This document shows, one piece after another, positions 1,413 through 10,566 of a DNA stretch of 10,933 nt. Origin of the DNA: Nitrospirae bacterium RIFCSPLOW2_12_42_9 (GTDB lineage: Bacteria > Nitrospirota > 9FT-COMBO-42-15 > HDB-SIOI813); contig MHER01000200.1 of NCBI GenBank assembly GCA_001805205.1, positions 1 to 10,933 on the forward strand. The letters run 5' to 3'. Position 1 is the stretch's first letter. Each line of letters begins with the position of its first letter. The position numbers and the translations under genes are program-made. The notes beneath the pieces were generated by a model. That model did no database searches. It was not told the DNA's origin and was given only the letters and a program-made list of their open reading frames with translations.

Positions 1413-1820
1413 TTACAGATGCTCGAGCAGGTTTTTAAAGAATACAGAGGTCTTAATATCCCCCTTTATTATAAGTCTCCGTGAAAAAAAGAGACTGTCA
1501 GCATCCTCTTTATGCAGGAAAAGCCTCAGGAAGGTATCAAAATCCCCCTGCATTATCACATCAGGTCTTCTTTTCCTGTCAAAATCAACCTTAACACTTC
1601 CATCATCTACATAGAAACAGTAGCTCCTTTTTATATCATCAGCCTCAAGGAGAAAGGCCTTACCTTTAATCTCTTTTAATCTCTTGCAGACTTCCTGATT
1701 CTTATTGATGGTTTTATTGAGGATAAACCTGAAGATAAGATTGTGTATACTCCCCGGAGCCATCCTCAAGATTGCCTTTTTCAATAAACTCCCATCCTGC
1801 CTGTCCGTGGAACCACCCAT
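1413..1820 (-). CDS. ubiT: SCP2-domain ubiquinone biosynthesis accessory factor UbiT
   Basis: A small SCP2 (sterol carrier protein 2) fold protein of 135 residues. In E. coli, UbiT (YhbT) works with UbiU and UbiV in O2-independent ubiquinone synthesis and is thought to bind the lipid-like quinone intermediates. The C-terminal stretch DADSLFFSRRLIIKGD (about 104-119) closely matches the E. coli block DPDTLFFQRRLVIEGD as I recall it. The ATG at 1820 is preferred. It has a strong GGAGGGG site (1828-1834) at 7-base spacing, and it supplies the N-terminal helix seen in E. coli UbiT. The alternative ATG at 1763 would drop 19 residues. This start places the gene 107 bases inside the end of ubiV, in another frame. 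It is the last gene of the minus-strand operon. Gene identity rests on both sequence and the ubiU-ubiV neighbours. The protein is shorter than E. coli UbiT at the C-terminus. Confidence 0.85.
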   Translation of the reverse strand: MGGSTDRQDGSLLKKAILRMAPGSIHNLIFRFILNKTINKNQEVCKRLKEIKGKAFLLEADDIKRSYCFYVDDGSVKVDFDRKRRPDVIMQGDFDTFLRLFLHKEDADSLFFSRRLIIKGDIKTSVFFKNLLEHL

Positions 1821-2724
1821 TACTCAGCCCCTCCGGTGCATATCCTCTTAAAACCTCAACAGCATCCTGACTTGTAATACCACCTTCTATAACCTTTCTG
1901 AAGGTATTTATAATATCCACAGTATTCCGCTCCTGTGGAATTATCCGTAAATACTCTATACCAAGTGCCTCCAGTATATCAAGCTGACCTATCATACATG
2001 CCTTCTGAGCACTCAAAAGCTGAGTACCATTTATATTGAAAACAGGCATCCCATCCATGGTTTCAAGCTGCATGCCTTCAGGATGCTTCTTACAGACAAT
2101 TGCACAATTAGTCTTTGCCATTTCAAGCGCCCGCACTGTATAACATCGCCACGAAAAGGCAACCGGAAGATTACCGAATCCTATAATCTCTTTTTCTATG
2201 GACGGGATGTTTGAAGAAATAGATTCTATTGCATCCTTATGCAATTCAGGCATGAATACAAGGCGTTTGATGCTTAAATCAGAAAAGAATCTTGCTGTAG
2301 AGGCATTATATACAGCGAGATGGGGGCCGGCGATGAGCCTCTTGTCAAGCTTGTCAGGCATCCTGCCTGACCTATCCGGATCAAAGGTTCCTGACCTATT
2401 AATATCACCATTGTTGGAGATGAGGTTTAATACACCGATATTGTTAATTTCTATGGAAAATGGCAAATCAACCAGAGACCTTACATATTCAAGCTCTTCC
2501 CTGTTGGTAATCAGGCTTAAGGTAGATAATACAACCTCCTTACCTTTGTCCTGCAGCATCCGTCCAATCCTCTCAAGGGAATCCCCGCCGAGTATTGTAC
2601 GCTTGCTGCACACAACTTCCCCGATATAAACTGTAGTAACAGGTGTATTTGCTATCTCTTTATAAAATGTGATTATCTTATCTTTATCCCACAGAAAGGG
2701 GATGGGGCCGAGTGTTATCTTCAT
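1714..2724 (-). CDS. ubiV: O2-independent quinone hydroxylation protein UbiV (U32 family)
   Basis: A U32 'peptidase' family protein of 336 residues. In E. coli, UbiV forms a heterodimer with UbiU, each binding a 4Fe-4S cluster, and the pair hydroxylates the quinone ring without oxygen. The cluster cysteines are at C39, C194, C207 and C211. The 13 and 4 residue spacings match E. coli UbiV (C39, C180, C193, C197, from memory). LGPIPFLW, the YIGEVVCSKR block around C39 and the AGPHLAVYNA block are also typical. The ATG overlaps the ubiU stop as ATGA, which implies translational coupling; an AGGA sits just upstream. Oddity: residues about 106-128 (INRSG to DKLDK) form a stretch absent from E. coli UbiV. 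Its DNA holds a perfect palindrome that recurs elsewhere in the window. The ubiT start lies inside the 3' end. Confidence 0.92.
   Translation of the reverse strand: MKITLGPIPFLWDKDKIITFYKEIANTPVTTVYIGEVVCSKRTILGGDSLERIGRMLQDKGKEVVLSTLSLITNREELEYVRSLVDLPFSIEINNIGVLNLISNNGDINRSGTFDPDRSGRMPDKLDKRLIAGPHLAVYNASTARFFSDLSIKRLVFMPELHKDAIESISSNIPSIEKEIIGFGNLPVAFSWRCYTVRALEMAKTNCAIVCKKHPEGMQLETMDGMPVFNINGTQLLSAQKACMIGQLDILEALGIEYLRIIPQERNTVDIINTFRKVIEGGITSQDAVEVLRGYAPEGLSNGWFHGQAGWEFIEKGNLEDGSGEYTQSYLQVYPQ
2353..2371. repeat. Palindromic repeat, copy inside ubiV
   Basis: GTCAGGCATCCTGCCTGAC: 8-base perfect arms around TCC. The identical 19 bases occur at 8681-8699. On the ubiV coding strand it encodes the SGRMPD part of the extra segment. 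A direct repeat CCTGACCTAT (2366-2375 and 2390-2399) adjoins it and encodes two RSG tripeptides. Confidence 0.8.
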
Positions 2725-3728
2725 TTTCCTTTATAACATCCAAAGCTTGGGGAAAGCCCTTCAAATAATGACTGGATACTTTCTTTCTTAGAAAGATCAA
2801 TCCCATGGCTGCCATGTTTATAGTAGTTGTCTAATGCTTCTCTAAAAGTACTCACAACCTTTTCCACATAAGTCCTGCTCCGCTGTCTCCCTTCAATCTT
2901 AATTGAATCTACACCTGCCTGTATAATCTCAGGGAGGATCTCAAGCACATTAAGTGATTCAGGATCCTGTATTGCATTGGTTAACTGACCCGTAGCCCTG
3001 TTATAGTACTTCCCCTTGCAGGGTGTGGGGTATGCTACTTCCTCTGATGGGGAGTACTTATTTAACAACACACCATTTGAAAGAATCTTAAGGGACCCTT
3101 CATTATCATCCTGAACAAAGTCTATAAACCTGGGATGGGAACATGCACCGTATGTATTAATAGATTCACTTGTGATATATGAGGAGAGGAAACATTGTCC
3201 CTCGCTGTTTATGCATAAGAGACCAAAGGCAAAGACCTCGATCTCAATATCGGTCTCTTTCCTTAGTTCACGTATCTCGTCAATGGTAAGGACTCTCGGC
3301 AGCACCACCCTTTTTATTCCAAAATGCCTGCGATAGAATTCTATTGCCTCCACATTTGAGGCACTCGCCTGGACAGAGAGATGAACCCTCTTTCCCGGAT
3401 ACCTCTTCCTGATATAAGACAGAACTGATATATCAGAGGCTATCACAGCATCTGCACCAAGACCATATGCCCTGTCCACTGTTTCTAAGGCAAGAGGGAG
3501 CTCTTTCTCCTGTGGATAGGCATTAACAGCAATATAGACCTTTTTCCCCCTGCTATGGGCATACTGGATGGCTTTATGGACTTCATCTTCTGTAAAATTA
3601 AGGCCCGGGAAATTCCTCAGGTTGGTATCCCCTGAAAATCCCATGTATACAGCATCAGCGCCATTATCTACAGCAGCCTTAAGTGAAGGGAGATTCCCTG
3701 CCGGGGCACATATTTCAACCTTTTTCAC
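2721..3728 (-). CDS. ubiU: O2-independent quinone hydroxylation protein UbiU (U32 family)
   Basis: A U32 family protein of 335 residues, partner of UbiV in O2-independent hydroxylation of the quinone ring. It matches E. coli UbiU (YhbU) over its whole length: CAPAGNLPSLKAA at the N-terminus, VSVQASASN-like LSVQASASNVEAIEFY (118-132), VVLPRVLTI (141-149) and KIEGRQRS (277-284). The 4Fe-4S cysteines are at C172, C179, C196 and C237. The spacings 7, 17 and 41 compare with 7, 17 and 39 in E. coli (C169, C176, C193, C232, from memory). This separates it from collagenase-like or tRNA-modifying U32 proteins. Translation starts at GTG 3728, with AGGGGTG (3736-3742) 7 bases upstream; no ATG fits the conserved N-terminus. 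It follows the cytochrome c gene by 16 bases and overlaps ubiV by 4. With ubiV and ubiT it gives a complete UbiUVT set. Confidence 0.94.
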   Translation of the reverse strand: MKKVEICAPAGNLPSLKAAVDNGADAVYMGFSGDTNLRNFPGLNFTEDEVHKAIQYAHSRGKKVYIAVNAYPQEKELPLALETVDRAYGLGADAVIASDISVLSYIRKRYPGKRVHLSVQASASNVEAIEFYRRHFGIKRVVLPRVLTIDEIRELRKETDIEIEVFAFGLLCINSEGQCFLSSYITSESINTYGACSHPRFIDFVQDDNEGSLKILSNGVLLNKYSPSEEVAYPTPCKGKYYNRATGQLTNAIQDPESLNVLEILPEIIQAGVDSIKIEGRQRSRTYVEKVVSTFREALDNYYKHGSHGIDLSKKESIQSLFEGLSPSFGCYKGK

Positions 3729-3744
3729 CTAAAAACACCCCTAT

Positions 3745-4497
3745 TTATAATATTAATAGCTTTATAAAAATAAGCACTGCTATTATAGCAAGTAACACTA
3801 TCAGGATTATAGACTGTATTACCCTGTGATCAAGCTCTTTTTTATAGGATAATACATCCTGCGTAATCTCTCTGGTAATATTTATTGCTGCTTCAGTCTC
3901 CTGATATACTCCTGTGAGGTTATGCGTATAGATCATATTATTTATAGTCTCAAGATGTGTCCACCCCTGGGCATATTTAACCTCAATATGATCAACATTG
4001 AATCCCTTCTTTTTAATCTCATCAATACCATGTCTTGCCTCATCAAGCCTCTCATGGGCCATTTTGATATTCCTTTCAATATCCTTTGGCAATTCTGCAC
4101 TCTTAAGGCTTATCATGTATGCTGAGAGGGCATCTGATTCCGGGCCCGGGAGATCAAATGCCGGCATAGTCGAACCGGAGACGACGGATTGAGGTTCCCT
4201 GAAGTGTCTTTTATGCCATTCCATATCATGGGAGACTATGTTACCTTCATTTGAAAGGTCCGGGCCGAGATCTCCCCCAATACCTGCTATCTTATGACAC
4301 CCACTACAACCTTTTAAATCATAAACCTCTTTTCCTATGGCACTAAGCTTTTCCATGTCAACCGGTTGAGCTCCGGCAAGACCGATACCGAGGATTAACA
4401 GGAGGATGTTGACTGGAAATAAGATTAACAGAAATACTGAGGTACTTCTTAGACCCTGAGTCAGGTTCAGGGTGACACTTCTATGTATATTGTTCAG
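3745..4497 (-). CDS. Membrane-anchored monohaem cytochrome c, probable CTG start
   Basis: An exported electron carrier with one haem. The conserved region has CSGCH (residues 64-68 counted from 4497) and the sixth-ligand methionine in STMPAF (M111). A helical region follows, with GWTHLETINN and VYQETEAAINITREI, resembling helices of multihaem nitrite reductases. A C-terminal membrane helix (about 228-250) ends at IKLLIL. The only in-frame ATG (4356) lies after the signal peptide, has no ribosome binding site, and would leave the protein in the cytoplasm where haem c is not attached. Upstream the frame encodes arginine-containing residues, a hydrophobic run (about 20-40) and an AGA|Q cleavage-like site. 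No ATG, GTG or TTG occurs in frame back to the stop at 4588. I choose CTG 4495-4497, which overlaps the previous stop as CTGA, with GGGGG at proper distance. Other CTG starts (4470, 4464) or an assembly frameshift are possible. It probably works with the adjacent cytochrome b. Confidence 0.8.
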   Translation of the reverse strand: MNNIHRSVTLNLTQGLRSTSVFLLILFPVNILLLILGIGLAGAQPVDMEKLSAIGKEVYDLKGCSGCHKIAGIGGDLGPDLSNEGNIVSHDMEWHKRHFREPQSVVSGSTMPAFDLPGPESDALSAYMISLKSAELPKDIERNIKMAHERLDEARHGIDEIKKKGFNVDHIEVKYAQGWTHLETINNMIYTHNLTGVYQETEAAINITREITQDVLSYKKELDHRVIQSIILIVLLAIIAVLIFIKLLIL

Positions 4498-5276
4498 GAT
4501 ATATGCCCCCAGACAGTAAACAATACAAAGAATAGTGCAAAAAGGATCCCGAGTCCAATCGCTATGGGCCTCTTCCTGTATGCCCTTTCAGGATTTTTGT
4601 CTATAAATGGAACTGCAAACAGAAGCACCACAAAGATTAACTCAAAGAGTATCCCTATGGTCTTGGGAGCCCAGTTGCCAAGGAATCTTAATATCTCTGC
4701 CCCTTTCAGTATCTGATAGGCAGCAAGGAAGAACCACTCCGGCTTGATATGTTCAGGTGTGGCAAGCGGATCTGCCTTTGGAAGCATAGGAGCAGGTGAT
4801 AAAAGGGTTAAAGTGGCAAGGAGGGCAATCAAAAGGAATGCTGCGGCTATCTCCTTTAGTGCATGGTTTGGCCAGAATGGGATACCGCCCTCCTCCTCAT
4901 AAATCGGCTCTAAGATATCCCTTGCAGAAATAACCCCTGCCGGTGTGCCATTTTCTGTGACAACTAAATGACGAACATTATATTTAGTCATCATCTCATT
5001 TGCCCTTGCTACAGATTCCTCAGAATCGATCGTATAGAATGGAGAGCTCATAACATTCTCTACCGGCGTAGTATACTGGTCGATCTCGCCTGCCAGTACC
5101 TTCCTCGTCATATCAACATCTGTAACAATACCAACCAGGCTGTCATTTTTTTTAACGAGCAGACTCCCTGTCTTCTGCCCTTTCATTATCTTAGCCGCTG
5201 CAACAACAGGCTCATGAGAGTCTATCGCAGCAATGTCTTTGGTCATTATCTTTTTGACAGGGATGAGAGGGATCAT
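4494..5276 (-). CDS. CBS-pair protein fused to cytochrome b C-terminal (subunit IV-like) domain
   Basis: A 260-residue membrane protein in two parts. Residues 1-125 are a tandem CBS pair, with the two typical nucleotide-contact ends GIVTDVD (49-55) and GVISARD (114-120). Such pairs usually bind adenine nucleotides. Residues 130-260 match subunit IV of b6f or the C-terminal half of cytochrome b: FWPNHALKEI, helix E (about 142-160), the Qo-site block ATPEHIKPEWFF (172-183, PEWFF where PEWY is usual), helix F (204-224) and helix G (238-256). Known topology puts CBS in the cytoplasm and PEWFF on the periplasmic side. The haem-binding N-terminal half of cytochrome b and a Rieske protein are not in this window. 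The ATG at 5276 follows an in-frame stop and has no clear ribosome binding site. The gene starts 56 bases after clpX and overlaps the cytochrome c frame. Inferred role: nucleotide-regulated quinol-cytochrome c oxidoreductase subunit. Confidence 0.88.
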   Translation of the reverse strand: MIPLIPVKKIMTKDIAAIDSHEPVVAAAKIMKGQKTGSLLVKKNDSLVGIVTDVDMTRKVLAGEIDQYTTPVENVMSSPFYTIDSEESVARANEMMTKYNVRHLVVTENGTPAGVISARDILEPIYEEEGGIPFWPNHALKEIAAAFLLIALLATLTLLSPAPMLPKADPLATPEHIKPEWFFLAAYQILKGAEILRFLGNWAPKTIGILFELIFVVLLFAVPFIDKNPERAYRKRPIAIGLGILFALFFVLFTVWGHIS

Positions 5277-8443: not shown

Positions 8444-8468
8444 TTAAAAAAATCTCCCCTCTCTTGTC

Positions 8469-8489
8469 ATACCGAATTTATTTCGGTAT
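8469..8489. repeat. Perfect palindrome between tRNA-Leu and tig
   Basis: ATACCGAA (8469-8476) and TTCGGTAT (8482-8489) form an 8-bp stem with a five-base loop. It lies 27 bases past the tRNA 3' end on the minus strand, so it could be a tRNA terminator or processing hairpin. No T-run directly follows; a run of seven T on the minus strand is about 17 bases further on. It could equally be a small dispersed intergenic palindrome. Confidence 0.5.
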
Positions 8490-8515
8490 CTCTACAACAT
8501 AAATCCCTCTTTTTC

Positions 8516-8598
8516 TGGTGCGAGAGGGGGGAGTTGAACCCCCATGGTTGCCCGCTGGATCCTAAGTCCAGTGCGTCTGCCAGTTCCGCCACTCTCGC
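8516..8598 (-). tRNA. tRNA-Leu (anticodon UAG), CCA encoded
   Basis: The acceptor stem is GCGAGAG/CTCTCGC, followed by A73 and an encoded CCA (8516-8518). The anticodon stem CTGGA/TCCAG encloses loop CTTAGGA, with anticodon TAG at 8562-8564, reading CUN leucine codons. A short class II variable arm with a GG-GCAA-CC hairpin and the T-arm GGGGG-TTCAACT-CCCCC complete the cloverleaf. The length is 83 including CCA. The D-arm has AACTGGCAGACGC, typical of tRNA-Leu. It lies upstream of tig on the same strand. A second copy of its first 18 bases lies upstream (8628-8646). Confidence 0.98.
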
Positions 8599-8627
8599 AT
8601 CTTGCATAGATAAACGAAATCCTGAAT

Positions 8628-8646
8628 CAGTTCCCCCACTCTCGCA
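8628..8646 (-). repeat. Partial duplicate of the tRNA-Leu 5' end
   Basis: The 19 bases at 8628-8646 equal 8581-8599 (tRNA 5' end plus one base) with one mismatch, 47 bases apart and in the same orientation. The match covers the 5' acceptor strand and the first part of the D-arm, and then stops. It is either a remnant of a tandem tRNA-Leu copy or an att-like scar of an integration or deletion event. Confidence 0.75.
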
Positions 8647-8680
8647 AATTACTTTCATTAGCTATAGTGGTTTGTCATAG

Positions 8681-8699: not shown

Positions 8700-8748
8700 A
8701 TCTTATATTATGTACTTGTTAAGTTATTGTTGTGTCAAGTTAATTTAC

Positions 8749-8778
8749 TTGAAAACCGAGAGAATTGTCAAGTATAAT
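8749..8778 (+). promoter_or_regulatory. Candidate sigma-70 promoter of the SLC13 permease
   Basis: TTGAAA (8749-8754), an 18-base spacer and a perfect TATAAT (8773-8778). Transcription would start near 8785, only about three bases before the favoured ATG at 8788. If right, the message is leaderless, which explains the absence of a ribosome binding site. Confidence 0.55.
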
Positions 8779-8787
8779 GCCCTCGTT

Positions 8788-10566
8788 ATGCCAGACACTA
8801 ATATCATAATAACACTGATCATTATGCTTGCAGCCATAGTGTTGTTCTCTCTCGAGGTATTTTCAGTGGACATTGTGTCCATCCTCGTAGTCCTCGCTTT
8901 GATCTTTTTCCGTATCCTCTCACCGGAAGATGCATTCCTCGGATTCAGCAACACTGCCCTTGTAATGATCGGGAGTATACTCATCATGACCACCGGTCTT
9001 GTTAAGGCAGGTGTTGCAGACAGGATAGCGCATTTAATCCTCAAAAAGGCAGGGACACATCCCCGGCGGCTGCTGTTCATGTTTCTGATCACTGTTGGCC
9101 TGATCTCGGCATTTATAAATAATGTAGCTGCTACGGCGATACTCCTTCCGGCAGCAGTAAGTATAGCAAGGATGGCACGGCTCAACCCTTCCAAGCTCCT
9201 GATGCCCCTCGCATTCGGATCTATGTTAGGAGGAATGCTCACCCTCATAGGGACATCCACGAATATCGCTGTTTCCCAGTCTTTGTCCAGATATAATATA
9301 ACCCCCTTTTCACTTTTTGAATTCACCCCCATAGGGATTCTGATCTTTGTGGCTGGAATTATATTTTTTATTACTGTCGGATGGCTGCTGCTCCCTGACA
9401 GGGAAAAAGAAACAGTTATGGAGGAGTATGGAATCAGAGAATATCTGTCAGAGTTAAAGGTGATGCCTCAATCCCCGATAGTCGGAGGTAAGATATCGCA
9501 GGATACATTTGAAGGTGCACCCGACCTGACAATTGTGGGAATATACAGGGAAAGTAAAAATATTTACATCCCCGGAGAACATTATACAATTCAGGATGGT
9601 GATTCTCTGCTTGTAATGGGGAGTGTTGATAGTCTTGCGCGGGCAGGTCAGTTAGAAGGGGTGGTGCTTAAATCCGGCCTCAAACCTTTAGATGAAGATC
9701 TGGAACCAGGAGATGTCCGTATGGTAGAGGCAGTAATTGCTGCAGACTCCATGCTCGAGTGGAAGACACTGAAAGAGTTAAACTTCAGACATACTTACGG
9801 TCTGTCAGTAATAGCCATCTACAGGCAGGGTATCTGCCTGCGAGAAAAAGTCGGGAGAATCCTCCTTCGCGTTGGAGATGTCCTCCTGATTCAGGGTGAA
9901 AAGGACCGCATAAATGCCCTGAGCGATATATTGAAATTGATTGTTATAGGTGAAGTCTCTCCGGAACAGTACCGGACAAAAAAGGCCACAATAGCCTCTG
10001 CCATCTTTCTTTCTTCAATCGTGATTGGCGCAGCCGGGCTCCTGCCTATATCTATATCCTTCCTCGCCGGCGCTGTAATGATGGTCCTCAGCAAATGCCT
10101 CTATGCAGACGAGGTATATGAAGCTATGAATATGCATCTGCTCGTACTTATTGGCGGTATGATAGCCCTTGGTATAGCAGTTGAAAGGTCCGGCACAGCA
10201 AAGTTTATTGCTGAATTCCTTATAAACAATACCTCATCTTACGGCATACATGCACTCCTCGGATCCTTTTTTATTCTTACTGTACTTCTGACTCAACCTA
10301 TGTCCAACGTAGCAGCGGCCCTTCTCATATTGCCTATTGCCATACATACGGCGCTCCAACTCGGCGTAAATCCAAAGACCTTTGCAATGACCGTAGCAAT
10401 AGCTGCATCCTGCTCCTTCATCACCCCGCTTGAGCCCTCATGTGTACTTGTCTACGGACCTGGCAGATACCGCTTCAGCGATTTCATTCGCGTTGGGCTG
10501 CCTTTGACTATAATAGCATTTATCATATCCATAATCTTTGTTCCGATATTCTGGCCGTTAAAATAG
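8788..10566 (+). CDS. SLC13/DASS-type permease with two internal TrkA-C (RCK-C) domains
   Basis: An inner-membrane secondary transporter of 592 residues (numbered from ATG 8788). The N-terminal half has INNVAATAILLP (110-121) and the ligand loop GTSTNIAVS (155-163). A soluble middle follows, with two TrkA-C domains (about 215-295 and 308-384), each with the typical PxHYTIQDGDSLLV or RILLRVGDVLLI pattern. The second transmembrane half has MSNVAAALLILP (505-516). The family moves anions such as di- or tricarboxylates or sulfate, usually with sodium; the TrkA-C pair probably senses a ligand. The expected second Asn-containing loop (as in TPIGYQTN of related proteins) reads TPLEPSCVLVYGPG (546-559), so the substrate is not predicted. 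The frame is open from ATG 8710, but those 26 extra residues are unlike the family and contain the promoter. ATG 8788 is therefore chosen despite lacking a Shine-Dalgarno site. It appears to be a single-gene unit. Confidence 0.9.
   Translation: MPDTNIIITLIIMLAAIVLFSLEVFSVDIVSILVVLALIFFRILSPEDAFLGFSNTALVMIGSILIMTTGLVKAGVADRIAHLILKKAGTHPRRLLFMFLITVGLISAFINNVAATAILLPAAVSIARMARLNPSKLLMPLAFGSMLGGMLTLIGTSTNIAVSQSLSRYNITPFSLFEFTPIGILIFVAGIIFFITVGWLLLPDREKETVMEEYGIREYLSELKVMPQSPIVGGKISQDTFEGAPDLTIVGIYRESKNIYIPGEHYTIQDGDSLLVMGSVDSLARAGQLEGVVLKSGLKPLDEDLEPGDVRMVEAVIAADSMLEWKTLKELNFRHTYGLSVIAIYRQGICLREKVGRILLRVGDVLLIQGEKDRINALSDILKLIVIGEVSPEQYRTKKATIASAIFLSSIVIGAAGLLPISISFLAGAVMMVLSKCLYADEVYEAMNMHLLVLIGGMIALGIAVERSGTAKFIAEFLINNTSSYGIHALLGSFFILTVLLTQPMSNVAAALLILPIAIHTALQLGVNPKTFAMTVAIAASCSFITPLEPSCVLVYGPGRYRFSDFIRVGLPLTIIAFIISIIFVPIFWPLK

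Follow-up and report, generated by a model that had tools for sequence, protein, structure and literature searches.

A pair of CBS domains is fused to a PetD-like subunit IV of cytochrome b in a protein of 260 amino acids. Judged from sequence comparisons, the fusion is genuine and old, and it is conserved in two groups of Nitrospirota. The complex bearing it, a bacterial respiratory relative of complex III, is a conserved variant of the b6f-type complex and apparently undescribed in the open-access literature searched; no description of a CBS-PetD fusion was found there, subscription journals being mostly outside this search. The fusion suggests a direct control of the complex from the cytoplasm. 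The window, i.e. the whole stretch of DNA analysed (10,933 nucleotides), is the entire contig C200 of a 2.05 Mb genome, which is assembled in 208 contigs and 85% complete.

The fusion gene, its spread and its conservation

The fusion gene is an ATG-start open reading frame on the minus strand (4494..5276). The protein matches two CBS domains (PF00571, 1.6e-24) and Cytochrom_B_C (PF00032, 4.4e-17, residues 167-258) in Pfam, in both cases above the curated cut-offs, while the subunit IV equivalog model TIGR01156 yielded 40.8 of 127.05 bits, far under its cut-off. Residues 4-123 (4908..5267, minus strand) form the CBS pair, a Bateman module of two tandem CBS domains of known fold. It carries the CBS1 motif GIVTDVD (residues 49-55; 5112..5132, minus strand) and the CBS2 motif GVISARD (residues 114-120; 4917..4937, minus strand), both located by alignment counts. 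A short linker (residues 124-131; 4884..4907, minus strand) replaces the free N-terminus of stand-alone PetD in the alignment. The subunit IV domain (residues 132-260; 4497..4883, minus strand) comprises the helices E, F and G and the Qo motif PEWF (residues 179-182; 4731..4742, minus strand), so that the Cytochrom_B_C domain, the Qo motif and the three membrane helices that define the PetD family are all present. The strings GIVTDVD, GVISARD and ATPEHIKPEWFF were confirmed in the protein. An AlphaFold2 model (mean pLDDT 75, pTM 0.45) contains a formed CBS pair (block pLDDT 72-90), an ill-defined linker, three membrane helices (137-159, 203-225 and 237-259) and an extra helix (181-199) directly after the PEWF motif. 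The structure search with the whole model was filled by matches to the CBS half, and the subunit IV half was assessed from sequence only. The CBS pair and the complete subunit IV with three membrane helices, as described in the first-pass annotation, are confirmed by the reading frame, Pfam and the model.

How widespread this architecture is had been raised in the same annotation. Both domains occur in 56 of 108 homologues from a protein search and in 59 of the best 120 of 412 profile matches; five of these 59 are the window's own, without an outside source. Every stand-alone PetD among the best 120 of 412 ranks below all 59 fusions. Names are available for six of the 59, all of them Nitrospirota or Leptospirillia. 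A full-length fusion was found in 14 of 395 Nitrospirota genomes, comprising ten of the window's class and four of a second family (f2). The window's family equals all ten genomes of its class that were searched, each with a full-length fusion (10/10); for f2, the genomes without a match are listed for 20 of 202, and further members without the fusion are possible. Six fusion loci (G001, G002, G004, G007, G008 and G009) were not counted as independent of the class genomes. An assembly artefact is ruled out by the occurrence of the fusion on many contigs and in many genomes. One protein of 188 amino acids from a 700-base contig, combining CBS with the N-terminal half of cytochrome b (P0165), was taken for a chimera.

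Conservation was assessed in an alignment of 43 fusions, i.e. the window and 42 of the 56 both-domain proteins, with near-duplicates and fragments excluded. Three further fusions (P0109, P0110 and P0111) were placed in the tree and kept outside the 43-row counts; among these, P0111 is the one whose sequence was inspected. In a tree of the subunit IV half, a single branch parts 46 fusions from 61 stand-alone PetD (support 94/92). It recurs in 93% of 200 bootstrap trees, a rough value in view of the few columns. This clean split between fused and stand-alone proteins fits one fusion event. The nearest named stand-alone PetD among the best 120 of 412 profile matches belong to Schekmanbacteria, Thermodesulfobacteriota and Lindowbacteria. 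Median dN/dS was 0.066 for the CBS half (29 of 45 pairs usable) and 0.05 for the PetD half (21 of 45), with dS saturated in many pairs. The CBS half changes faster (median dN 0.152 versus 0.102) and has the lower mean pairwise identity (0.51 versus 0.64 in the 43 sequences). A degenerate gene is ruled out by the conserved residues and the low dN/dS of the fusion. The CBS pair might also be an inert passenger, fixed by chance on an unregulated complex. CBS pairs are promiscuous, and many of these genomes have them in short frames of about 127-215 amino acids. However, the retention of the fusion in all ten class genomes and four f2 genomes, the low dN/dS and the invariant residues of the ligand motifs make such a passenger extremely improbable.

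Partner genes and genomic neighbourhood

The partners of the fusion are encoded at a separate locus. Contig C102 of the same genome contains genes for glmM, a cytochrome c, a Rieske protein, a cytochrome b6 and a hemerythrin, and no subunit IV beside them. The b6 protein matches PF00033/PF13631 and forms, together with the PF00032 domain of the fusion, a split cytochrome b. The Rieske protein (PF00355, 5.5e-13) has the 2Fe-2S motif CTHLGC...CPCHAG. Both histidine pairs of b6, H-x13-H and H-x14-H, are present in 12/12 sequences of the two families; we take H-x14-H to be the b6-type spacing. A cysteine in NFWFCFGG, seen by eye in the same 12/12 sequences, is presumably the attachment residue of haem ci. 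The statement of the first-pass annotation that neither a b6 nor a Rieske gene is adjacent is true within the window, and the genome search that it proposed for both located them together on C102. The candidate reading that the genome contains no partner is ruled out by the cytochrome c, Rieske and b6 genes on this contig.

The order glmM-cytochrome c-Rieske-b6 recurs in 8/8 class genomes having this b6 (ten searched), and no subunit IV was found in the 1.5 kb flanks of these loci in any of the eight. This b6 is missing from G001 and G009, two class assemblies with a completeness of just 70-71%. G003 (98% complete) has both genes, fusion and b6, on a single contig at a distance of 34.6 kb. In f2, Rieske, b6 and fusion genes are adjacent in 4/4 genomes and are followed by cytochrome c domains in 4/4. 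An additional cytochrome c gene precedes Rieske in G027, the sole f2 locus whose main frames were run through Pfam. The f2 b6 proteins are 64-68% identical to the b6 of the window's genome, the other b6 types compared 34-43%. The two loci of the window's family together correspond to one f2 cluster as in G027, by which the window holds the half with subunit IV and cytochrome c. Next to the complete f2 cluster, one genome encodes a histidine kinase together with a sigma-54-type response regulator (L063:10670-14040, minus strand). The complex clearly belongs to the Rieske/cytochrome b superfamily. Its assignment to b6f proper is not secure: cytochrome f (PetA, PF01333) gave no match in the 85%-complete genome, while the control was positive in Synechococcus and Thermotoga.

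A second Rieske/b-type complex is present in the class. The PF00032 search of the window's genome gave the fusion as single match, which initially suggested one subunit IV. A later search retrieved a second, more distant subunit IV-like gene, of which the C-terminal part is present, cut by the end of contig C43 (G000:C43:6659-7141, L120). A second Rieske/b6/subunit IV set occurs in seven class relatives (G002, G003, G005 to G009). Its subunit IV is 26-31% identical to that of the fusion and, in the two inspected genomes G005 and G002, has about 280 amino acids and the Qo motif APWY. Frames for FeS proteins and multihaem cytochromes adjoin the second set, as seen by eye (L078, L080-L085). Within the 85%-complete assembly, no subunit IV other than the fusion appears to fit the b6 on C102 in type. 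A separate full-length bc complex alongside a degenerate fusion gene was the scenario named in the first-pass annotation as speaking against a functional fusion. A piece of a second complex does exist on C43, but the fusion is conserved with low dN/dS, so that this scenario holds in its first part at most.

The minus strand of the window reads tig, clpP, clpX, fusion, mono-haem cytochrome c, ubiU-, ubiV- and ubiT-like genes; a ppsR-like gene is located on the plus strand. The membrane-anchored mono-haem cytochrome c (3745..4476, upper bound approximate, minus strand; Pfam Cytochrom_C/FixO) lies downstream of the fusion in 8/8 class genomes whose contig continues. Upstream, clpX is found in 9/10 class genomes, and the tenth contig begins near the fusion. 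In the window, the first ATG of the cytochrome c (4356) comes after a signal-peptide-like stretch, before which no in-frame ATG, GTG or TTG occurs; the gene may start with CTG, or its sequence may have been altered. In G002, G003, G004, G006 and G009, the cytochrome c ATG is close to the fusion stop. The window's genome gave a single match to haem-copper oxidase (PF00115), over 56 of 436 positions; the short frame with this partial COX1-type match adjoins a small cytochrome c (L119, G000:C49).

The ubiU-, ubiV- and ubiT-like genes (1413..3728, minus strand) were assigned by NCBIfam and synteny as conserved neighbours outside the complex. The cut-offs were exceeded by UbiT and narrowly missed by UbiU (409 of 440 bits) and UbiV (270 of 275 bits). 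The ubiU/V/T genes are described for the O2-independent (anaerobic) quinone hydroxylation, and menaquinone is assigned to early-branching anaerobic Nitrospirota, methyl-plastoquinone to later aerobic lineages (PMC13386864). A link between quinone synthesis and the complex is possible from the position of these genes beside a cytochrome b subunit. The window also contains a tRNA-Leu (8516-8598, minus strand), whose overlapping reading frame (8467-8658) is probably spurious, and a CitMHS/DASS-type anion transporter with two TrkA_C stretches (8710-10566, plus strand; Pfam). This transporter is found beside tig also in those class relatives whose contig reaches it.

Membrane placement and the proposed control

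The CBS pair is assigned to the n-side of the membrane, the cytoplasm, on the basis of the single membrane helix between it and the Qo motif in the AlphaFold2 model and of the loop charges, with a mean net charge of -1.3 in the ef loop and +2.9 in the fg loop. The cytoplasmic location given in the first-pass annotation is thereby borne out. With phmmer, residues 128-143 (EEGGIPFWPNHALKEI) align gap-free to DSDKIPFHPYYSFKDI, a bc1 stretch of 1bcc_C. Thus, K141-E142 (4851..4856, minus strand) fall on the K-D pair of bc1 cytochrome b at the Qi site, and the CBS pair ends 19 residues before the residue aligned with the Qi aspartate. We take this aspartate to be Asp229 in the yeast numbering. Asp229 forms a hydrogen bond to the Qi quinone and is the end of an n-side proton path (PMC9162462). 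H138, K141 and E142 are identical in 43/43 fusions, and the position of E142 is occupied by E (31), Q (29) or N (1) in the 61 stand-alone PetD. The distant fusion P0111, outside the 43, has N at this position and PHWY for PEWF/Y. A profile search sets residue 132 against residue 29 of the 160-amino-acid subunit IV chains of b6f, by which the CBS pair occupies the place of the PetD N-terminal tail. This tail, counted up to the shared motif PFxPxH, has 13-30 residues in 56 of the 61 stand-alone PetD; the motif was not matched in the other five.

A direct gating of quinol oxidation at Qo by the CBS pair, as the first-pass annotation proposed, is very unlikely. Subunit IV does bear PEWF, and the reading of this motif for PEWY was right for the window; across the 43 fusions, the fourth letter is Y (27), F (14) or V (2). 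PEWY is present in 61/61 stand-alone PetD, and the tyrosine is replaced in 16/43 fusions, a loss that is confined to the fused clade among the sequences compared. However, the end of helix E to which the CBS pair is joined is on the n-side, next to the site of quinone reduction (Qi), and the attachment aligns with the Qi carboxylate, while PEWF is located at the opposite membrane face.

CBS modules are often sensors of cell energy nucleotides; SAM, Mg2+ and further ligands are also bound. Both repeats of the fusion have the pattern G-h-h-T/S-x-x-D/N. G49, T52, D55, S117, A118, R119 and D120 are invariant in 43/43 fusions, and G114 of the CBS2 motif is kept in 42/43. G-h-h-[T/S]-x-x-D is given as the CBS nucleotide motif in PMC6429129, and the position of R119 corresponds to that of an MgtE arginine touching the ATP phosphates (PMC6429129). 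The CBS pair of the fusion may bind an adenine nucleotide, with the S117/R119/D120 site as the likeliest place. It is rather unlikely that it senses SAM, Mg2+, NAD or a dinucleotide instead and tunes the complex to that signal rather than to energy charge. SAM/MTA-bound MJ0100 and Mg-ATP-bound CorB are indeed among the structural matches, beside AMP-bound 2rif and AMP/ADP/ATP-bound AcuB. Nothing specific speaks against such a ligand, and adenosine ligands are indistinguishable from sequence.

A purely structural role has been considered as well. The CBS pair may dimerise the protomers or dock a cytoplasmic partner, e.g. an electron donor to haem ci, without nucleotide sensing. Disc-like pairing of CBS modules is described for MgtE and for CNNM proteins (PMC6429129). 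The short linker and the putative haem ci cysteine in 12/12 b6 sequences, an n-side redox entry point, also fit such a docking function. It is nevertheless improbable, since the T/S and D of both motifs and R119 are invariant in 43/43 fusions and unneeded for dimerisation alone.

In Chlamydomonas under oxic conditions, the deletion of five N-terminal PetD residues made the oxidation of the b haems about 20-fold and the reduction of cytochrome f about 10-fold slower; the authors explain this by an impaired Qi with effects on Qo (PMC13287000). Electron transfer was unaffected in the phosphomimic T4E (PMC13287000); not every change of the PetD N-terminus alters the turnover. This deletion, the Qi-adjacent attachment and the replacement of the tail are the grounds for placing the proposed control at Qi instead of Qo.

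In the best explanation, on which we are evenly divided between acceptance and doubt, the fusion is the subunit IV of a Rieske/cytochrome b complex of the b6f type and bears the CBS pair at its cytoplasmic N-terminus, where the CBS ligand would act via helix E on Qi. The CBS module would probably pair with that of the other protomer in the dimeric complex. A change of ligand may shift the start of helix E and thereby affect how Qi/haem ci takes up protons or admits quinone. With Qi slowed, electrons would back up on the b haems, and the Qo turnover would drop secondarily. As for the sign, it is a weakly held guess that AMP/ADP favours turnover and ATP throttles it, which would match the complex or its reverse mode to the energy charge. 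Arguments against this explanation are the existence of other CBS ligands, the lower conservation of the CBS half and the departure of P0111 at both Qi and Qo. The linker is poorly predicted and the pTM is low (0.45), so that a rigid coupling of the CBS pair to helix E is hypothetical. A full allosteric energy-charge gate is a tentative proposal, somewhat more doubtful than credible: paired CBS modules over the Qi/haem ci face would let the ATP:AMP ratio switch between fast forward and throttled or reverse operation, in an arrangement that arose once and was fixed in two Nitrospirota lineages.

To our knowledge, substrate supply and proton-motive force are usually regarded as controlling complex III, rather than an intrinsic ligand-binding domain. 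With a CBS pair on a core subunit, it would become possible to test direct nucleotide control of the Q cycle on a single purified complex. In nitrite-oxidising Nitrospira, complex III is thought to run in reverse (PMC12324825). A nucleotide control would bear on how Nitrospirota choose the direction of electron flow.

Comparison with known systems

The complex resembles b6f-type complexes in the four-helix b6, the putative haem ci cysteine, the three-helix subunit IV with a Qo motif and the Rieske protein. It differs in the CBS pair on subunit IV, in the two separate gene loci of the window's family and in the other c-type cytochromes, with no PF01333 protein found in the genome. Stand-alone PetD among the best 120 of 412 profile matches are up to 63% identical to the subunit IV half of the fusion (named ones 51-59%); those of Schekmanbacteria, Thermodesulfobacteriota and Lindowbacteria have a short N-terminal tail instead of the CBS pair.

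The Rieske/cytochrome b complexes of anammox bacteria likewise combine a b6-like four-helix cytochrome b with a subunit IV and have c-type cytochromes in place of cytochrome f (PMC12954380). In contrast to the fusion, their subunit IV gains two more membrane helices in models, and CBS has zero mentions in the main text of that paper (PMC12954380).

MgtE, CorC/CNNM and CBS-pyrophosphatase also have a cytoplasmic CBS pair with G-h-h-T/S-x-x-D joined to a working domain (PMC6429129; PMC11172384). These are transporters or soluble enzymes, whereas the fusion is a core electron-transfer subunit. A further parallel is PetD of the Chlamydomonas b6f complex, whose n-side N-terminal part also influences the Qi turnover (PMC13287000). 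The N-terminus of the algal protein consists of a few residues with a phosphorylation site, whereas the fusion has a putative ligand-binding domain at this place.
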